Assembly (NCBI RefSeq): GCF_023101085.1
Contig: NZ_CP064703.1
Span: 4,836,001-4,900,000, forward strand
Origin: Bradyrhizobium sp. 170
GTDB lineage: Bacteria; Pseudomonadota; Alphaproteobacteria; Rhizobiales; Xanthobacteraceae
DNA: 64,000 nucleotides
Reading direction: 5' to 3'
The notes under the pieces were generated by a model. The model did no database searches and was not told where the DNA came from. It saw only the letters and a program-made list of their open reading frames with translations. Below are positions 13,563 to 20,599 of this stretch, piece by piece; the first letter of the stretch is position 1; each line of letters starts with the position of its first letter. The position numbers and the translations under genes are program-made.

Positions 13563-13928
13563 CTCGCGGCTTTTACAGGCGAATCGGGCTCGCGACATAG
13601 TACAGACTATCCGCCGCTCGCGTCCCTCCCGGTTAACACGGCGAATACGGCGGGTTTGCGACAGACGGAATTTCCGCAGTAATTTCAAGGAATTTCATAC
13701 CATCTCTTCTCATCGTTTACCGGGTTTCCGGCATGTTACTGGTACGAAACTGGTACGGTGATGTCGGCTTTCGTGAACGGAATCCGGCAAGGGCGGTGCG
13801 CCTCACAAGAAGCATGGTTTGTACCCGCTTGTCGATGACGGTACCATTTTCTGCCATCTGATCAGGCATAAATGGGCATTATGCGACTGCGCGGCCGACC
13901 CAGCCAGGTCGGCCGACCACAAGGGATA
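13563..13928. other. Intergenic region: DUF2155 promoter side and left edge of accessory island
   Basis: No convincing gene lies here. The direct repeat ACTGGTACG occurs at 13738-13746 and 13749-13757 (11-base period). A perfect 9-bp hairpin, CGGCCGACC (13892-13900) and GGTCGGCCG (13907-13915), lies just before the next gene. The composition drops toward AT beyond 13680, which marks the transition to accessory DNA. No integrase or tRNA boundary was found. Confidence 0.5.
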
Positions 13929-15014
13929 ATGTTCGAGCGCCCCACCAAAAACGACTTGGACACGGCTTTGTCGATGCTGATGCACGAAAGTCGCCACAAG
14001 CTCATGGATCAGGTGAATCGCATTAAGGGCGATGCGATTAAGGCGGGTGCGCTTCAAAGTAACGGCGTCATCGTCACGGCGATCAGTGCGGCCGACGCCA
14101 TCCATAAGGAAGCGATGGAGCAGGCTCACACCATCCTGCTCAACTTCATCGAGCGGATGGAGCGCGCGCCGACAGAAATTGTCGGCTGGGCGCGTCCTCA
14201 TCTCGACAACCTCAACAACTCGGTTCTCGCCGTGGTGCCACCCAACGGATTTCCGCATGATCATCAGCGTCTCACAAACCAATATCGGGCAGTCTTTCAG
14301 CAGCGCTCCGACAACACGCTTCGCAATGTAGAGATCGGGCACCAGAAAGGGACGGGCTTTGCCCGCGCGGAAAAGGTGGAAAGCAAAGAAAAATGGATCA
14401 GCGCCGCCGAGGCCATCGGGCTTCTTGCCCCGGGAGGCAAAGACCAGTTCGCGGCCAAGATGGCCTTGTGCAAGCGCGCTCATGCGGGGATGGTGCGCTC
14501 GCGCGCGCAGCGGTTCATCATTGCAGGCAGAGTCCGAGACAATGTGGAGTTGCCGCCGGTTTTTTGGTGGGCTGAGGGGCACGAAGCTCTTCACCAAAAT
14601 TGGCACACAGGCGATTTCGATACATGGCCAGATAGCGGCTTGCTGAGCCGCGACCTTCGGCTCTCTGCTGGTAAGGTGCATCTAGAAGCTTTTGACGTCT
14701 CGTTCCTGCGTTCGGATCTTGAGAAAATGATACCGGCTGATCTCGCCCCTCCTCCGCCCCCGGCATTGAACTCGGCCGCAGCGGCCGAGCCAGCCCGCAA
14801 CAAGGGCGGCCGTCCTAGGCATGAGTTCTGGGAAGAGCTTTGGGTCGAAATCGCCAGGCAACTGTACATCGGCGACCTGAAGCCCAAGACCCAGGCCGAT
14901 ATCGAGGCGGCCATGCACCAGTGGATCGCCGATCAAGGACGTGAAGCAGGCGGCACGACCATCCGTGATCGCGCACGCATGCTGTGGCGCGCCATCGAAA
15001 AGGACGGAAACTAG
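13929..15014 (+). CDS. Uncharacterised accessory protein with C-terminal GGRP helix module
   Basis: Function is not recognised. The 361-residue protein has a helical N-terminus (about 1-100) with MHESRHKLMDQVNRIKGDAI, a charged middle and a C-terminal module beginning NKGGRPRHEFWEELWVEIA and ending TTIRDRARMLWRAIE. Similar GGRP modules recur at the ends of accessory-region proteins in Bradyrhizobium as far as I recall, and the GGRPR motif looks AT-hook-like, so DNA binding is possible. ATG 13929 is preceded by AAGGG and by a hairpin; ATG 13872 and 13881 in the same frame are alternatives that would run through that hairpin. Confidence 0.65.
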   Translation: MFERPTKNDLDTALSMLMHESRHKLMDQVNRIKGDAIKAGALQSNGVIVTAISAADAIHKEAMEQAHTILLNFIERMERAPTEIVGWARPHLDNLNNSVLAVVPPNGFPHDHQRLTNQYRAVFQQRSDNTLRNVEIGHQKGTGFARAEKVESKEKWISAAEAIGLLAPGGKDQFAAKMALCKRAHAGMVRSRAQRFIIAGRVRDNVELPPVFWWAEGHEALHQNWHTGDFDTWPDSGLLSRDLRLSAGKVHLEAFDVSFLRSDLEKMIPADLAPPPPPALNSAAAAEPARNKGGRPRHEFWEELWVEIARQLYIGDLKPKTQADIEAAMHQWIADQGREAGGTTIRDRARMLWRAIEKDGN

Positions 15015-15148
15015 GTTTTCGTCAGTTTCCGCTCCTTATCGGCCGACATCCGGCCGGTTAGCCGCCAATTTCCTCCCCATCACGGTGCGTTGTTGGCCGA
15101 TCGCGGATGCGATCAATGGAAGCCTCAACGCGAAATGCGGAGGCCCCT

Positions 15149-15274
15149 ATGTCGGGACATCTATCGATCGAAATTCTTGGGGTGCTGAAAGGCGCGGCTG
15201 ACGGGCCGTTTGCGATCGGCACCCTCGCCCTGATCGCGCTGGCGGCTACGGCGCGGCTATGGTTCCGGCGCTAA
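15149..15274 (+). CDS. Small single-helix membrane protein
   Basis: A 41-residue ORF starts with ATG seven bases after GCGGAGG, a strong ribosome-binding site. After a short polar N-terminus it has one hydrophobic segment (about 18-36, FAIGTLALIALAATARLW) and a basic end, as in small inner-membrane peptides. It sits between the GGRP protein and the convergent ABC-3C operon. No family is recognised, and coding status rests on the ribosome site and the membrane helix. Confidence 0.4.
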   Translation: MSGHLSIEILGVLKGAADGPFAIGTLALIALAATARLWFRR

Positions 15275-15291
15275 CGCCCGTGACGGCAGTC

Positions 15292-17221
15292 TCAAGAGGT
15301 TGTGCTCTCACCACTGTTGCTCTTTGCGCCAGCTTCAGTGCTTGCTTCTTTCGGGGCGACAAAATTCAGCGTTCCTTGCTGGAGGGTAGAAAACTTCCCG
15401 ACGAACAGGCTGGGGTCAATGTTCCGCCACGGCATGGCTGTTGCGAGAATGATTTGGTGCTCGACAGGGGCTATCGCGGAAATCTCAATGACTTGCCTCT
15501 GAAAGTTATGGCTGCGTTCCTGCTCCATTCCCTTGTCCTCCGTAATATCGATCATGAGAAAGCGCGGGTGACGGAACATCGGATCAATAAGGGCCGCGTT
15601 CAGGAAACCCATAAGGAAGGCCGTCTTTAGGACCACGCGAGAGCTGGCCGAGAAATAGGTGTGATCGTCTACCGTGATGGAGTTCTTGGCGAAAGAAAAC
15701 TCGACGCGTTTGGGGTCGCCGAAAGAATCTTGGCGCTTCAAGTCTCCGCGGAGTATCTTTACTATGTTTTTCTCAATACTTGCCTTTGCAGTCCTCAGGC
15801 GATCGGTCTGGCTGAGCTGCAGTGCGCTGATGCGAGCCCCAAGCGCCTGAATTTCTTCATCCAGCTTTGCCTTCTTTTCGGATAGATCACCAATCTTGTT
15901 AGCCAGTCTGACCTGTCTTTCGATGTCTTCAATGGACTTGTCTATGTAACCAAGCTTGCGCTGGAGTTCCCGTATCTCTTCGCGGGCCTTGGATGTAGGT
16001 ATGGCGCTCAGTTCTGTAAGCTCCTTTGATTTTAGTCGCCAGGTGCTCTGCAGCGAGCTTAGCGGATTGTTTAATTTGAATCGATAGCTCGTTGATGAGT
16101 CCCACGACCCGGCCACGCGCACGCTCCGAATCGAGCGGCGTCTTGCAAAGGTGACACGCAGCGGCTTCGCCCCCCTGCTCTAGGATCTCGGCGTAGCACG
16201 CAGGACAGGTACCAAAATGAATCGTACGAACAACTTCAGCAGCAAGGTCCGCATCTCTCAAGGCTTCGAGGCGCGCTTGCAGCGTGTTGATGAAAGCGGC
16301 GGAGTCCGAGATTTCGAATTCTATTGCATCCACCTCAGACTGCTTGTCCCGAATGTTTCCTTGAAGCTTTTGGACCTCCCGGTAGAGGTCCTTCTGCGCC
16401 TGAAGCGTGATCCGGTCTGACGATCGGTTGTCATAGAACGCCTCTTCAGCGACGGATAGTTGAGAAGTTACGATACCCCGTTCCTCAACCAAGGCCTTGC
16501 TACGCTGCTCGATCCAGTTGAGGTCCATACTTTCGTCACCGCCTCCAACCACGCGAAATATACTGCGAAGCTCGGCTGACGCCTCGGTGAAGTCCCGTTC
16601 TTTGGTTTTCTTCAGCTGTTGAAGCTCGTAAATTTCGGTATCGAAGGCTCCACACAGAAGATTTCCGACTGCCTCGCGCAAATTTTCTGGATCATACCCT
16701 TCAAATCGAAACAGGCTATCGGTTGGCGAAAGTTGATCGGCGTACAAGAGCCGCAAGACCTGATGAATGGTAAGGTTCGATGTTCCTTCGACTGCAACAT
16801 CCGGCATGTCGAGGAGGCGGAAAATTGCTTGGGAAAAGCTCTCTTGGTTCTTCTGACGAGCGTAGGGGTATCGGTTCCACGCTTCGATCGGTGCTCCCAC
16901 AGCCTGCGAATAGCGACCGCCGAATATCTCCATCGCGGACTGAGAAGAGGCATCGATCTTGCGGCGAAGTACCGCCGGATTTCCATTGAACTCGGCCTCT
17001 AACCAAACATGATCGCAAAGCAACGCATGCTCGCTCCAATCACTTCGGCTAAGGTCTCCGCCAAGGCCATAAAAAATAAAATTCAAAATGGTGGATTTGC
17101 CCGAGGAGTTATCACCTCGGATGATATTGACGCCGGCATGCAATACCTCGTCATAAGCAATCGCAGCACCGCGCTTTACGACCAGCCTCTTGACGATAAG
17201 ACAAGGATCAAACCGAGTCAT
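15292..17221 (-). pseudogene. ABC-three-component system ATPase (SMC/Rad50-like), split by a one-base frameshift
   Basis: Two overlapping frames make one protein of about 630 residues. The first (start 17221) has Walker A GDNSSGKST at 36-44, a coiled coil and a CPAC/CHLC pair resembling a zinc hook. The second frame carries the rest of the coiled coil, a degenerate signature (YFSASSRVVLK) and the Walker B region RFLMIDITEDKGME typical of ABC-3C ATPases. The frames join at 16021-16030: ATKIK of frame one should continue as ELTELSAIPT of frame two, which needs removal of one base from the AAAGGAG run. Unless this is a sequencing error, the ATPase is truncated after the coiled coil. It is the last gene of the operon and overlaps the middle component by 14 bases. 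Confidence 0.8.
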
Positions 17222-17729
17222 ATCTATACTCCAGAAGTCCCGTGCGATTCTTCAACCCATCACGGCCACCGAGGGCATATTTGGCCTTGATCTGGCAAAG
17301 TATGTTCATAATGTCGGCCATGCGCACATTCAGAGTAGTGCAGCGCGCAGCTAATAAAGTCGGCAGCTGAAGCGTGGTAAATGCTACCTCGTCTGTTTCC
17401 CAGGCCTCAGCGGATAGATGGCCGCTTTGGACGAGGCTGACTGCAGCGGCGCGCTGAAACAGCTCCATTCTAGCGAAAATCGAATTGTCATCAGGCATTG
17501 CGCCGTAGGGCGCACTATCTCCATAAGAGCGACTGATCTTCCGCCAACCCGTGTCTTCAGAATGAAGTCTGATCGCCTGAAGGCGAAAGGGAAACAGTAG
17601 ATAGAAGTCGAGGATGCGTAGCGTGTCGAACGGCATTTTCTTGTGAAGCTGGCACGCAGCGTTCAGTCGAATGAATCTGAATGCAGTATGATAGGGGTCG
17701 AATGCCTCGTTGTAGGTGAGCTGGGTCAT
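17208..17729 (-). CDS. ABC-three-component system middle component
   Basis: The 173-residue protein begins MTQLTYNEAFDPYHTAFRFI, contains a helix-rich middle with RILDFYLLFPFRLQAIRL and ends in LLEYRYDSV. This arrangement (short alpha-helical protein directly before an SMC-like ATPase and after a CTD protein) matches the middle component of the ABC-3C systems described by the Aravind group. Its start overlaps the upstream stop as ATGA, so translation is coupled. The role is thought to be linking the ATPase to the effector-bearing third component; this is a prediction for the family. Confidence 0.7.
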   Translation of the reverse strand: MTQLTYNEAFDPYHTAFRFIRLNAACQLHKKMPFDTLRILDFYLLFPFRLQAIRLHSEDTGWRKISRSYGDSAPYGAMPDDNSIFARMELFQRAAAVSLVQSGHLSAEAWETDEVAFTTLQLPTLLAARCTTLNVRMADIMNILCQIKAKYALGGRDGLKNRTGLLEYRYDSV

Positions 17730-18307
17730 GGCTGGACCGCGCTGTGGTGCCACTTGATGAAGCATTGTTCGGCGAGCCAATAGATCATACCCAGGACAAG
17801 GTTGTGGTTTACCGATATGAGATCACTGCCGCACTCTTCAACGATTGGATTTGCGATTCTCTCGATGACAAGTGCATTGATTTCCTCTGGAGTCTTCTGG
17901 GGAATCTGGCCGTAGATGACATGCGTGAACTCAGTCTCGGCCTTCGCTAGGATGTGCACGAAGATCAGCTGGGCTGATGAGTATAGAGACCAACGCTGCA
18001 ACAGCTTGGCGAACATCTCCTTTTTTTCGATAGCATCGTCGTAATATTGCGATCGCCCGCTGGCTTCCAGCTTTGCCTGCAGACCTGCAACGCCATCTGG
18101 GGCGCGCCGGATGTGATAGCGAGCAAGCTCATCGATGATCGTTTGGGTCTGCTCATTGCAGTCGTACTGCTCCTTAAGACGCAGGAGCAGCCTCTCGATC
18201 ATGCCCTTTTTGGTTTCGACGATTACCTTGTCGCGACCAACTATATCGCCGTGAGCGTGAGCGCCCTGCTGGCTGGAGATCGTACCTTGGCCGGTGGCGA
18301 TGTTCAT
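17726..18307 (-). CDS. ABC-three-component system C-terminal-domain component
   Basis: The 193-residue protein opens with a Gly/His-rich stretch ending HGDIVGRDK (about 20-28) and continues with a helical ABC-3C CTD: QTQTIIDELARYHIRRAPDG, YYDDAIEKKEMFAKLLQRW, then SAQLIFVHILAKAETEF. In the known layout this domain carries an N-terminal effector; here no enzymatic effector is fused. The preceding gene instead encodes a membrane peptide ending in the same GDIVGRDK motif, so the effector may be supplied separately. It is 24 bases after that gene. Confidence 0.75.
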   Translation of the reverse strand: MNIATGQGTISSQQGAHAHGDIVGRDKVIVETKKGMIERLLLRLKEQYDCNEQTQTIIDELARYHIRRAPDGVAGLQAKLEASGRSQYYDDAIEKKEMFAKLLQRWSLYSSAQLIFVHILAKAETEFTHVIYGQIPQKTPEEINALVIERIANPIVEECGSDLISVNHNLVLGMIYWLAEQCFIKWHHSAVQP

Positions 18308-18331
18308 GCGTGTCGTCGTGCTAGCGCGAAG

Positions 18332-18502
18332 CTAGTGCTTGTCTCGCCCGACAATGTCTCCTCCAGCACTTGCACGCGATTGATCAGTCGCTGTTCCATG
18401 CCGGTCCGCACGAACATTTTTTGTAAGCTGAAACGTCAACAGCGCTCCGCCCACTGCACCGGTCAGCAAGCCGCCCAAGAAATTCCATAGATCAAAACTC
18501 AT
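18332..18502 (-). CDS. Small transmembrane peptide with GDIVGRDK tail, first gene of the ABC-3C operon
   Basis: The 56-residue product has one Gly-rich transmembrane helix (about 6-26, LWNFLGGLLTGAVGGALLTF), a basic linker and a C-terminus reading SAGGDIVGRDKH. The last motif is nearly identical to one near the N-terminus of the next protein (HGDIVGRDKV). ATG 18502 is used because the longer frame upstream has no features. Inferred role: a membrane-acting effector or anchor of the ABC-3C system that associates with the CTD protein through the shared motif. No homologue is known to me. Confidence 0.6.
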   Translation of the reverse strand: MSFDLWNFLGGLLTGAVGGALLTFQLTKNVRADRHGTATDQSRASAGGDIVGRDKH

Positions 18503-18559
18503 TTGCGAATCCCCAGCCTCGTTCGTGAAACAACCATTGCCTGCCTTTATTGGGCGTCG

Positions 18560-18575
18560 CAACCGTTTACGGTTG
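18560..18575. promoter_or_regulatory. Palindrome upstream of the ABC-3C operon
   Basis: CAACCG and CGGTTG flank TTTA, giving a perfect 6-bp inverted repeat 58 bases before the first operon gene. AACGGTTGCA nearby at about 18608 repeats one half. This may be an operator, but no regulator gene is linked. Confidence 0.35.
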
Positions 18576-18585
18576 TGCACTGGAG

Positions 18586-18732
18586 TTAGCAGGAATCCTC
18601 GGGGAGCGATAACGGTTGCATCATACCGTCGATGTAGATTTCTCCTGTCTCAAGAGGCCGGTCTAGTCGTAGTGGGACATTGCAGGGCTTTCGTACGCGA
18701 AAGTTGCTCGATTGTTGCCCCGACCTAGTCAT
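18586..18732 (-). CDS. Small uncharacterised ORF upstream of the ABC-3C operon
   Basis: A 48-residue frame from ATG 18732 to TAA at 18586 encodes a basic N-terminus and LETGEIYIDGMMQPLSLPEDSC. No ribosome-binding site, family or conservation is visible, and it overlaps the likely promoter region of the ABC-3C genes. It is listed because the frame lies in a gap, but it may well be non-coding. Confidence 0.2.
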   Translation of the reverse strand: MTRSGQQSSNFRVRKPCNVPLRLDRPLETGEIYIDGMMQPLSLPEDSC

Positions 18733-18840
18733 GCCCCGTTTCAGATGAAATAGTCGCTCCCGTTCGCGCGAGGTGCCCACTCCTGGCGCGAAAACCACCA
18801 AAATCCGGGATAACCGGAGGAGCGAGAGGAAATCCCAGAT

Positions 18841-19620
18841 ATGCCCGATCGAATTCGCCTCGATGGCCGGGTTGCCGTCGTGACCGGCGCGGCCGGCGTC
18901 ATCGGAACCGCCACCATCGGCCTCCTGGCCGAACGCGGCGCCCGTATCGTCGCCGTCGACCGCAGGGAGCAGGATCTGGCGGCCGCCATCAAGGACCTGC
19001 CCGCCTCCGCCGAAGCGCTTGCGGTGACAGCTGACGTCACAAGCGAGGACGAAGTCGCGGAATATGTCCGCGCCACCGTCGACAGGTTCGGCACCATCGA
19101 TGCATTCTACAACAACGCCGGCATCGAGGGCGACATCAAGCCGATCCCGGAATATTCGCTGGAGAGTTTTCGCCGCGTGCTCGACGTCAATGTCGTCGGC
19201 GTCTTTCTCGGCATGAAGCATGTGCTGCCGGTGATGCTCAAACAAAACAAGGGCAGCATCATCAACACCGCCTCGATCGCCGGCCTGATGGGATCGCCGA
19301 TGATCGCGGTCTACAGCGCCAGCAAGCACGCGGTGATCGGGCTGACAAAAAGCGCCGCCTGGGAATGCACCGGCACCGGCGTGCGGGTCAATTGCGTTTG
19401 CCCCGGCCTGATCGACAGCCGGATGCTGAGCACGATCCTGCAGGGCCGCAATCCCGGCAACGAGCCGCCGCCGAACGAGAAGATCGTCGACCGGATTCCG
19501 GCGCGGCGGCTCGGACAGGCGTCCGAAGTCGCCTCCATCGTGGCGTTCCTCGCCTCCGACGAGGCGAGCTACGTTTCCGGCTCCGCCTATACCGTCGACG
19601 GCGGCCGCACCGCCGCCTGA
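18841..19620 (+). CDS. SDR family NAD(P)-dependent oxidoreductase
   Basis: The 259-residue classical short-chain dehydrogenase has the cofactor motif VTGAAGVIG at 14-22, AVDRREQD (the Asp favours NAD), NNAG near 94, catalytic Ser in NTASIAG and the YSASKHA Tyr/Lys pair near 158-162, and ends SGSAYTVDGGRTAA. It oxidises or reduces an alcohol/ketone; the substrate is unknown. The alpha/beta hydrolase follows 31 bases later, so the two are probably co-transcribed. A purine-rich ribosome site (GGAGCGAGAGG) precedes the ATG. Confidence 0.9.
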   Translation: MPDRIRLDGRVAVVTGAAGVIGTATIGLLAERGARIVAVDRREQDLAAAIKDLPASAEALAVTADVTSEDEVAEYVRATVDRFGTIDAFYNNAGIEGDIKPIPEYSLESFRRVLDVNVVGVFLGMKHVLPVMLKQNKGSIINTASIAGLMGSPMIAVYSASKHAVIGLTKSAAWECTGTGVRVNCVCPGLIDSRMLSTILQGRNPGNEPPPNEKIVDRIPARRLGQASEVASIVAFLASDEASYVSGSAYTVDGGRTAA

Positions 19621-19651: not shown

Positions 19652-20599
19652 ATGCCTGTCACGCTCGATCCCGATGCCGCCGCAGTCTACAAGGCTTTCC
19701 AGGAAGCTGGCCGTCCCGCCTATGAGACGCTGACCGCGCCGGAAGCGCGCGAATATTATCTGAACGCCCGCGTCGTCATGAACCCCGAGCCGCCCGCGCT
19801 CGAATCGAACAAGCCGCTGTCGATCCCCGCGCCGCACGGCGCGATCCCGGCGCGCATCTACACCCCGAAGACGCTGCGGAAGAACAACGGCCTTGCGCCG
19901 TGCCTGGTGTTCTTTCACGGCGGCGGCTGGGTAATCGGCGATCTCGATACCCATGAAGTGGCCTGCCAGAAGCTTGCCCATGAGGGCGAGTTGATCGTTA
20001 TCTCCGTCGACTACCGGCTGGCGCCCGAGCACAAATTCCCCGCCGCCGCCGATGACGCCATCACCGCGACGAAATGGGTTGCGGATAACGCCAAACAGCT
20101 CGGCATTGACGCGACGCACTTGCTGGTCGGTGGCGACAGCGCCGGCGGCAATCTTGCCGCCGTCGTGGCGCTGGCCGCGCGTGACGGCGACGGCCCAAAA
20201 CTCGCCGGCCAGGTGCTGATTTATCCCGCCACCGATTTTGCGATGAAGCATCCCTCGCACAGCGAACCCGAGACCAGCATCCTGCTGACGCACTCCGTGA
20301 TCAAATGGTTCTGCAACCACTATCTCAACGGCGCTGATGACATCGACCATTGGAAGGCCTCGCCCGCGCGCGCGAAAACGCTCGCCGGCCTGCCGCCGGC
20401 CTATGTGCTGACGGCGGGCGCCGATCCGTTGCGCGACGAGGGGGCCGAATATGCCGCGAGGCTCAAGGAAGCCGGCGTGCCCATGACCTATCGGCACTTC
20501 CCCGGCCAGTTCCACGGCTTCTTCACCATGGGCAAGCTTTTGCAGCAGGCCAATGTCGCGGTCAGCGAAATCGCCGCATGGCTGAAAGCGCTGAAATAA
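19652..20599 (+). CDS. Alpha/beta hydrolase of the hormone-sensitive lipase family
   Basis: The 315-residue esterase carries the HSL oxyanion motif FHGGGWVIG near 88-96, nucleophile elbow GGDSAGGN (Ser near 165), acidic TAGADPLRDEG and His in FPGQFHGFF. Such enzymes cleave short acyl esters or lactones in the cytoplasm. It follows an SDR gene closely, a pairing seen in small catabolic operons. No signal peptide is present. Confidence 0.9.
   Translation: MPVTLDPDAAAVYKAFQEAGRPAYETLTAPEAREYYLNARVVMNPEPPALESNKPLSIPAPHGAIPARIYTPKTLRKNNGLAPCLVFFHGGGWVIGDLDTHEVACQKLAHEGELIVISVDYRLAPEHKFPAAADDAITATKWVADNAKQLGIDATHLLVGGDSAGGNLAAVVALAARDGDGPKLAGQVLIYPATDFAMKHPSHSEPETSILLTHSVIKWFCNHYLNGADDIDHWKASPARAKTLAGLPPAYVLTAGADPLRDEGAEYAARLKEAGVPMTYRHFPGQFHGFFTMGKLLQQANVAVSEIAAWLKALK

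Follow-up and report, generated by a model that had tools for sequence, protein, structure and literature searches.

ABC-three-component (ABC-3C) operons are placed in the Lamassu superfamily, which has been studied experimentally (review PMC10586767; see also PMC12409362). In Lamassu an N-terminal enzyme region of LmuA is described as the effector (PMC10586767), and on activation LmuA is set free and assembles into a tetramer, by which its nuclease is turned on (PMC12409362). A separate nuclease gene upstream of a protease-LmuA fusion has also been described, the fused protease activating the nuclease; Lamassu is one of several systems that have acquired such nuclease-protease pairs (PMC12799240). 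Bacterial amyloid signalling motifs are defined by another layout, with one copy at the C-terminus of the effector and one at the N-terminus of the sensor (PMC8086366, PMC12261475); there the sensor is an NLR and the effector a Bell protein, and a review has asked whether signalling amyloids occur in NLR-independent pathways (PMC7889193). Here we analyse 64,000 nucleotides of Bradyrhizobium sp. 170 (contig NZ_CP064703.1, positions 4,836,001 to 4,900,000; this whole stretch is called the window), part of a 9.2-Mb single-contig genome. The window holds a Lamassu-like cassette that begins with a gene for a 56-residue membrane peptide, and the motif GDIVGRDK is shared by this peptide and the neighbouring CTD9 protein.

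The CTD9 cassette and its relation to Lamassu

Judged from its sequence, the cassette is of the ABC-3C kind, made up of CTD9, the middle component MC5 and an LmuB-like ATPase, with the peptide first. The genes form a series on the minus strand, each start lying near or inside the end of the preceding gene: the 56-residue peptide, proposed here as effector (18332..18502; from the list of open reading frames (ORFs), the AlphaFold2 (AF2) model and charge analysis), a 193-residue LmuA-like CTD9 protein without enzyme domain, which would act as an adaptor (17726..18307), the 173-residue MC5 protein in the position of LmuC (17208..17729), and the ATPase. The MC5 ORF overlaps the stop of the CTD9 ORF. 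Profile searches confirmed the proposed ABC-3C membership, with matches to PF20285 for CTD9 (E 8.3e-34, 116.9 bits against a Pfam cut-off of 27.9), to PF20291 for MC5 (E 4.3e-53, 180 bits against a cut-off of 25) and to the PADLOC LmuB profile for the N-terminal piece of the ATPase (E 3e-33). The original prediction described four leftward genes, and three of them, the peptide, the CTD gene and the middle component, were recovered with intact frames; the ATPase is not one gene and lies in two overlapping frames. A scan for promoters and terminators gave no excess over shuffled sequences.

The order of CTD protein, middle component and SMC-like ATPase is that of Lamassu (LmuABC, DdmABC, ABC-3C), as is the LmuB match. 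The modelled CTD9 fold aligned best with LmuA, and an LmuA-type fold for it is a tentative assignment. LmuA was not among the matches when Foldseek alone was run on the CTD9 model, and a search of the PDB with the CTD profile returned one chance-like match, to 18 residues of multicystatin (E 0.0036). Residues 1-31 of CTD9 had a predicted local distance difference test (pLDDT) score below 50, so that the tail with the motif is predicted to be disordered. Unlike the Lamassu proteins, the 193-residue protein has no N-terminal enzyme domain, Pfam finding CTD9 alone in it, and it is preceded by the separate membrane peptide, whose motif covaries with its own. Because of the missing enzyme domain on an LmuA-like protein, we classified the cassette as ABC-3C and Lamassu-like, and not as a standard LmuABC system.

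A shared motif in the peptide and the CTD9 tail

As originally noted, GDIVGRDK is present in both proteins: at the C-terminus of the peptide, which ends GDIVGRDKH (18338..18361, minus strand; translation and DNA pattern search), and at residues 20-27 of the CTD9 N-terminal tail (18227..18250, minus strand). CTD9 loci (here given L numbers) were gathered from genomes, plasmids and IMG/VR; the sub-threshold locus L053, L061 at a contig edge, the unfetched H8 and the duplicates L020, L058, L080 and L083 were left out of the locus counts. After exclusion also of two loci found through the motif itself, there are 39 in which no enzyme is fused to CTD9, and 38 of them have an upstream frame whose C-terminal motif matches the N-terminal tail of their own CTD9. 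Thirty-six of these frames are complete peptides with a hydrophobic segment; that of L033 is frameshifted between the hydrophobic segment and the motif, and L038, at a contig edge, has the tail only. The sole unfused CTD9 without peptide and without motif is L041 (4857-5348), upstream of which a helix-turn-helix-like stretch can be read by eye. The expectation that homologous loci keep the peptide and the shared motif was therefore borne out.

The motif varies among the loci and is not always GDIVGRDK. The peptide and CTD versions are GNTVRGHMSGRDVNV and GNTVHGHMGGRDVNV in L047, AGGHIAAGNVTT and AGGHIAGGSVST in L037, VGGDFTIG and VGGDLIIG in L063, and GGDQIVGDKY and SGDQVIGGKY in L060; in L069 both proteins carry AGGDVAGGNIDKS. 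To measure this similarity we aligned the last 34 residues of the peptide with the first 60 residues of the CTD in 35 pairs, leaving L010, L033 and L038 out of the alignment statistics and the cut CTDs of L015 and L034 out of the 35-pair test. For ten representatives with CTD cores less than 40% identical, the mean score was 63.2 for own pairs and 28.8 for foreign pairs, the own partner was the best match in 10/10 cases in both directions (peptide to CTD and CTD to peptide), and the observed sum was reached by one of 100000 shuffles. No shuffle of 100000 reached the observed sum with 16 or with 22 representatives; the own CTD was best for 12/16 and 12/22 peptides in these larger sets, because several pairs share the consensus.

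The motif similarity of a peptide and its own CTD exceeds what their shared ancestry gives, and it is covariation and not chance. A partial Mantel test that controlled for the identity of the CTD cores gave r 0.61, a value reached in none of 5000 permutations; this set included the cut CTDs of L015 and L034, as did the control comparisons. Within it the motif scored 65.1 for own and 30.9 for foreign pairs, the membrane part of the peptide gave no signal against the CTD tail (own 16.8, foreign 17.2), and the peptide tail against the CTD core gave a small unexplained excess (own 23.3, foreign 19.9), far under the motif signal. These data suggest that the tags of peptide and sensor change together across very different bacteria, and that contact of tag with tag may switch on the peptide.

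The degenerate DNA pattern of GDIVGRDK occurred three times in 146 genus genomes, twice in the window and once in G800, always at a CTD9 locus; the reversed pattern, run as a control, had no match in any row of the same search. In IMG/VR six contigs matched. Four are CTD9 loci, two of which were already known; the other two share one phage gene that reads GDIVGSDK, which the degeneracy of the pattern permits. Three trivial origins of the repeat were considered and rejected. A chance repeat is ruled out by the covariation tests and the rarity of the DNA pattern, and a widespread unrelated motif by the fact that the IMG/VR matches are mostly CTD9 loci (4/6 contigs). The two window copies differ in 6/8 codons, all synonymously, which rules out a recent DNA duplication and indicates conservation at the protein level.

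The proposed search for the peptide beside other CTD genes found it, or a remnant of it, at the 38 unfused CTD9 loci. Other CTD families were searched in 75 genus genomes each, CTD6 being found in 10, CTD10 in one and CTD7 in five. An open frame of at least 290 residues lies at the locus centre in 14/16 fetched loci, and no peptide was found upstream at the three loci with a frame of less than 300 residues, to which this inspection was confined. The CTD6 protein of L107 is a 176-residue frame, immediately upstream of which an apparent out-of-frame remnant of an N-terminal region can be seen by eye.

The membrane peptide and the hydrolase-fused CTD9 proteins

The window peptide has one hydrophobic segment, modelled by AF2 as a glycine-rich helix of residues 2-32 (18407..18499, minus strand) with mean pLDDT of 88 for residues 1-10, 90 for 11-20 and 76 for 21-30; its tail is of low confidence. 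In 38/38 peptides examined, the net charge is higher after than before the hydrophobic segment. The peptides of CTD9 loci range from 50 to 110 residues. The window peptide matched no NCBIfam or PADLOC family, its best Pfam match being PsaL at E 0.18, far under the cut-off of that family; among 23 peptides scanned there was likewise no convincing Pfam family (best E 0.011, a transmembrane family). A profile built from 23 peptides found six matches in 195 genus genomes, each beside CTD9, three secondary matches that are CTD tails, and no peptide away from CTD9 loci, all among the candidates listed (at most 31 per genome). On plasmids the profile gave two matches, both adjoining CTD9, in what is a weak test, as it recovered two of six known peptide-carrying plasmid loci; phage records gave no peptide match. 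The peptides of L042, L063 and L064 are longer (97-110 residues) and apparently have two hydrophobic segments with the same C-terminal motif logic. That of L067 (738-1010) carries two motif copies, GGSIAGGS and AGDIAGGD, which we take to be reminiscent of two-repeat amyloid signalling domains.

Six CTD9 loci (L036, L049, L050, L051, L056 and L057) encode a fused enzyme, in proteins of about 400-460 residues. They show the usual enzyme-CTD layout of Lamassu, with an N-terminal alpha/beta-hydrolase-like region that was assigned to Pfam DUF676 in L036, L049 and L056 and judged by eye in the other three. The profile found the peptide in 0/6 of these loci. Peptide and enzyme thus look interchangeable, and it is chiefly because of this either/or pattern that we call the peptide the candidate effector.

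Proposed mechanism and comparison with amyloid signalling

We propose a Lamassu-like ABC-3C variant in which a motif tail on CTD9 has taken the place of the enzyme and would serve to recruit, or to nucleate, a membrane effector encoded separately, and we consider this account likely. CTD9 lacks an N-terminal enzyme and would instead carry a flexible tail with an adhesive motif of about 17 residues; the effector would be the 56-residue single-pass membrane peptide, whose C-terminus, bearing the same motif, would face the cytoplasm. By analogy with Lamassu, the LmuB-type ATPase and MC5 would sense foreign or damaged DNA, after which CTD9 would be released and oligomerise as reported for LmuA. 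Oligomerisation would cluster the motif tails, the clustered tails would bind the matching tails of the peptides, perhaps templating them in an amyloid-like way, and the gathered peptide helices may then injure the membrane, so that the infection is aborted. The idea of a split membrane effector put forward in the original prediction stands on firmer ground than when it was stated, given the 38 loci and the covarying motif; that the peptide is the effector and the motif its dock is what we infer from these patterns.

Some limits apply to these counts and tests. For several peptides and CTDs the start codon was picked by hand, ties were scored as best matches in the 35-pair covariation test, and the Fisher test of peptide presence, run on 40/41 against 0/6 loci including the two found through the motif (38/39 without them), treats loci that are not independent. 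Covariation shows pairing alone, and a pairing could also serve a membrane tether: one membrane-spanning helix whose motif tail lies in the cytoplasm would suffice to anchor CTD9, MC5 and the ATPase as a complex on the inner membrane, for instance close to incoming DNA, the effector being CTD9 itself or an unlinked protein. We regard the tether as unlikely. CTD9 has no enzyme domain and a disordered tail, so that an effector would be missing, and the absence of the peptide from all six hydrolase-fusion loci fits an effector better than a tether.

The peptide is small and hydrophobic, its gene comes first in the operon and its motif recurs in the partner protein; this would also suit a constitutive membrane toxin that CTD9 keeps inactive through the motif, sensing then releasing the peptide instead of clustering it. 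This is still less probable than the tether. The same self-like motif in both partners would point to co-assembly and not to an inhibitor interface, and release and oligomerisation are what activates LmuA (PMC12409362).

Whether the tails would propagate is a finer question within the recruitment model. The motif is short, with G, D and N regularly placed, and disorder was predicted just for the isolated chains; the tails could accordingly pair up as a beta-arch, a short beta-solenoid or another small, ordered heteromer, with no self-propagation. Such plain docking, compatible with the proposed mechanism in all but the templating, has in our estimate slightly less than an even chance. What speaks against it is the arrangement itself, since an effector C-terminus and a sensor-side N-terminus encoded by neighbouring genes are the layout known from amyloid signalling pairs of bacteria and fungi (PMC8086366, PMC12261475, PMC7889193).

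Like the BASS/Bell systems of NLR amyloid signalling, the cassette has adjoining genes whose products carry pairwise similar motifs, C-terminal in the (here putative) membrane-active effector and N-terminal in the protein on the sensor side (PMC8086366, PMC12261475, PMC7889193). It differs from them in that there is no NLR, the motif being carried by the CTD9 protein and the putative sensor being an SMC/Rad50-like ATPase complex, and in that the candidate effector is a peptide without convincing Pfam match; the likeness is one of gene layout and motifs. The fungal HET-s/HELL and animal RHIM signalosomes also signal to a membrane-disrupting protein through a homotypic short motif (PMC7889193, PMC12881547), in other kingdoms and with other sensors, and the likeness drawn here is one of layout. 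We tentatively raise the possibility, which at present we judge the less probable outcome, of a non-NLR class of amyloid-type signalling, in which an SMC-like DNA-sensing complex would nucleate the assembly of self-templating motifs and thereby activate a minimal membrane killer of a single helix; the specificities of the motifs would be many and co-evolved. If the proposal is true, a peptide of about 56 residues replacing an enzyme would be a very small modular effector linking SMC-type DNA surveillance to membrane killing, and the 22 pairs with CTDs less than 60% identical would offer a direct test for NLR-independent signalling amyloids that includes natural specificity controls.

The original prediction took ABC-3C as conflict systems known from prediction and knew of no split effector of this kind described by experiment. 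The first part has been overtaken by the experimental work on the Lamassu superfamily (PMC10586767). A separate effector has a precedent there in another form, the nuclease encoded upstream of the protease-LmuA protein (PMC12799240), which shares with our cassette the separate upstream gene; unlike that pair, the window cassette has no protease, only a shared motif, and the described effector is not a membrane peptide. For the peptide-motif pairing itself we found no precedent: no description of a peptide-CTD pair appeared in the titles and abstract starts listed from the open-licence literature, a scope outside which the likeliest sources lie, and four GDIVGRDK-type strings returned no paper in that literature. 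Priority of the pairing is thus uncertain.

The interrupted ATPase

The N-terminal part of the LmuB-like ATPase (15929..17221, minus strand; AAA_23 at 2.5e-6 in addition to LmuB) carries, as read by eye, a Walker A motif, GDNSSGKST, at 17090-17116, and a CxxC...CxxC region. The C-terminal part lies in another frame as a GTG-initiated ORF of 276 residues (15292..16122, minus strand); it matched LmuB (PADLOC E 1.4e-8 for 15292-16041) and is 94% identical to the C-terminal half of the ATPase of L007, the Bradyrhizobium erythrophlei copy. The L007 ATPase is open through 659 residues with no stop. Fifty bp that follow the CxxC...CxxC region in L007 are gone from the window, the alignment placing the junction and the frame shift at 16063..16064, and the N-terminal frame runs out past this deletion. 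Intact relatives matched LmuB more strongly (4.8e-47 for L007, 3.2e-49 for L084). Although the window frame is not intact, its kinship with the SMC/Rad50-like ABC ATPases of ABC-3C operons is still recognised, and within that kind the window copy counts as degraded. A PDB sequence search with the N-terminal piece gave no match, and one with the L084 ATPase just weak matches to Rad50 and AriA (best E 0.022).

Since the 50-bp loss shifts the ATPase frame, the window copy is probably inactive. That it is a relic, decayed in its host strain, is a view we hold with fair confidence, and it is compatible with the mechanism proposed for the family; frames are broken also in L010, L015, L033, L034 and L045. 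Against decay stand the intact peptide, CTD9 and MC5 frames of the window and the relatives in which both ATPase halves were found, 27/30 of which, all but L015, L034 and L045, read both in a single frame, and the two pieces could in principle be produced separately. In L010, L015, L034 and L045 it is CTD9 or the ATPase that is hit, by a frameshift or a premature stop, and decay in several relatives suggests a cost of the system or its quick turnover. On an Agrobacterium plasmid, L033 (5549-9144) shows no more of the middle component than residues 1-29; Mu-transposase, TniB and TniQ genes come next, as though a transposon had cut the middle component.

Genomic context

The cassette lies in an inserted island of about 5.07 kb (13655..18721), whose flanks are within about 150 bp of each other in 6/6 fetched relatives. 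The GC content is 51-55% at 15000-18000 and 57.5% at 18000-18999, against 60-68% in the other kilobases shown. The window DNA is 91.6% identical to that of L007, with the similarity confined to 15286-18590 (12.6 kb of L007 compared). Defence-type genes adjoin two of four annotated unfused plasmid loci (L031 and L032; L033 and L034 are unclear). The behaviour of the cassette is that of a mobile unit. An 84-kb part of the B. erythrophlei genome, with the closest relative of the cassette in it, is entered in IMG/VR as a viral contig (L058, corresponding to L007).

The insertion also holds a 380-residue ORF on the plus strand (13872-15014), with no Pfam match at E <=0.01; the cassette and this ORF stand back to back. 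ARAGORN called a tRNA-Pro (ggg) at 19789-19882 on the minus strand, inside an esterase ORF (19652-20599), and this call is probably a false positive.

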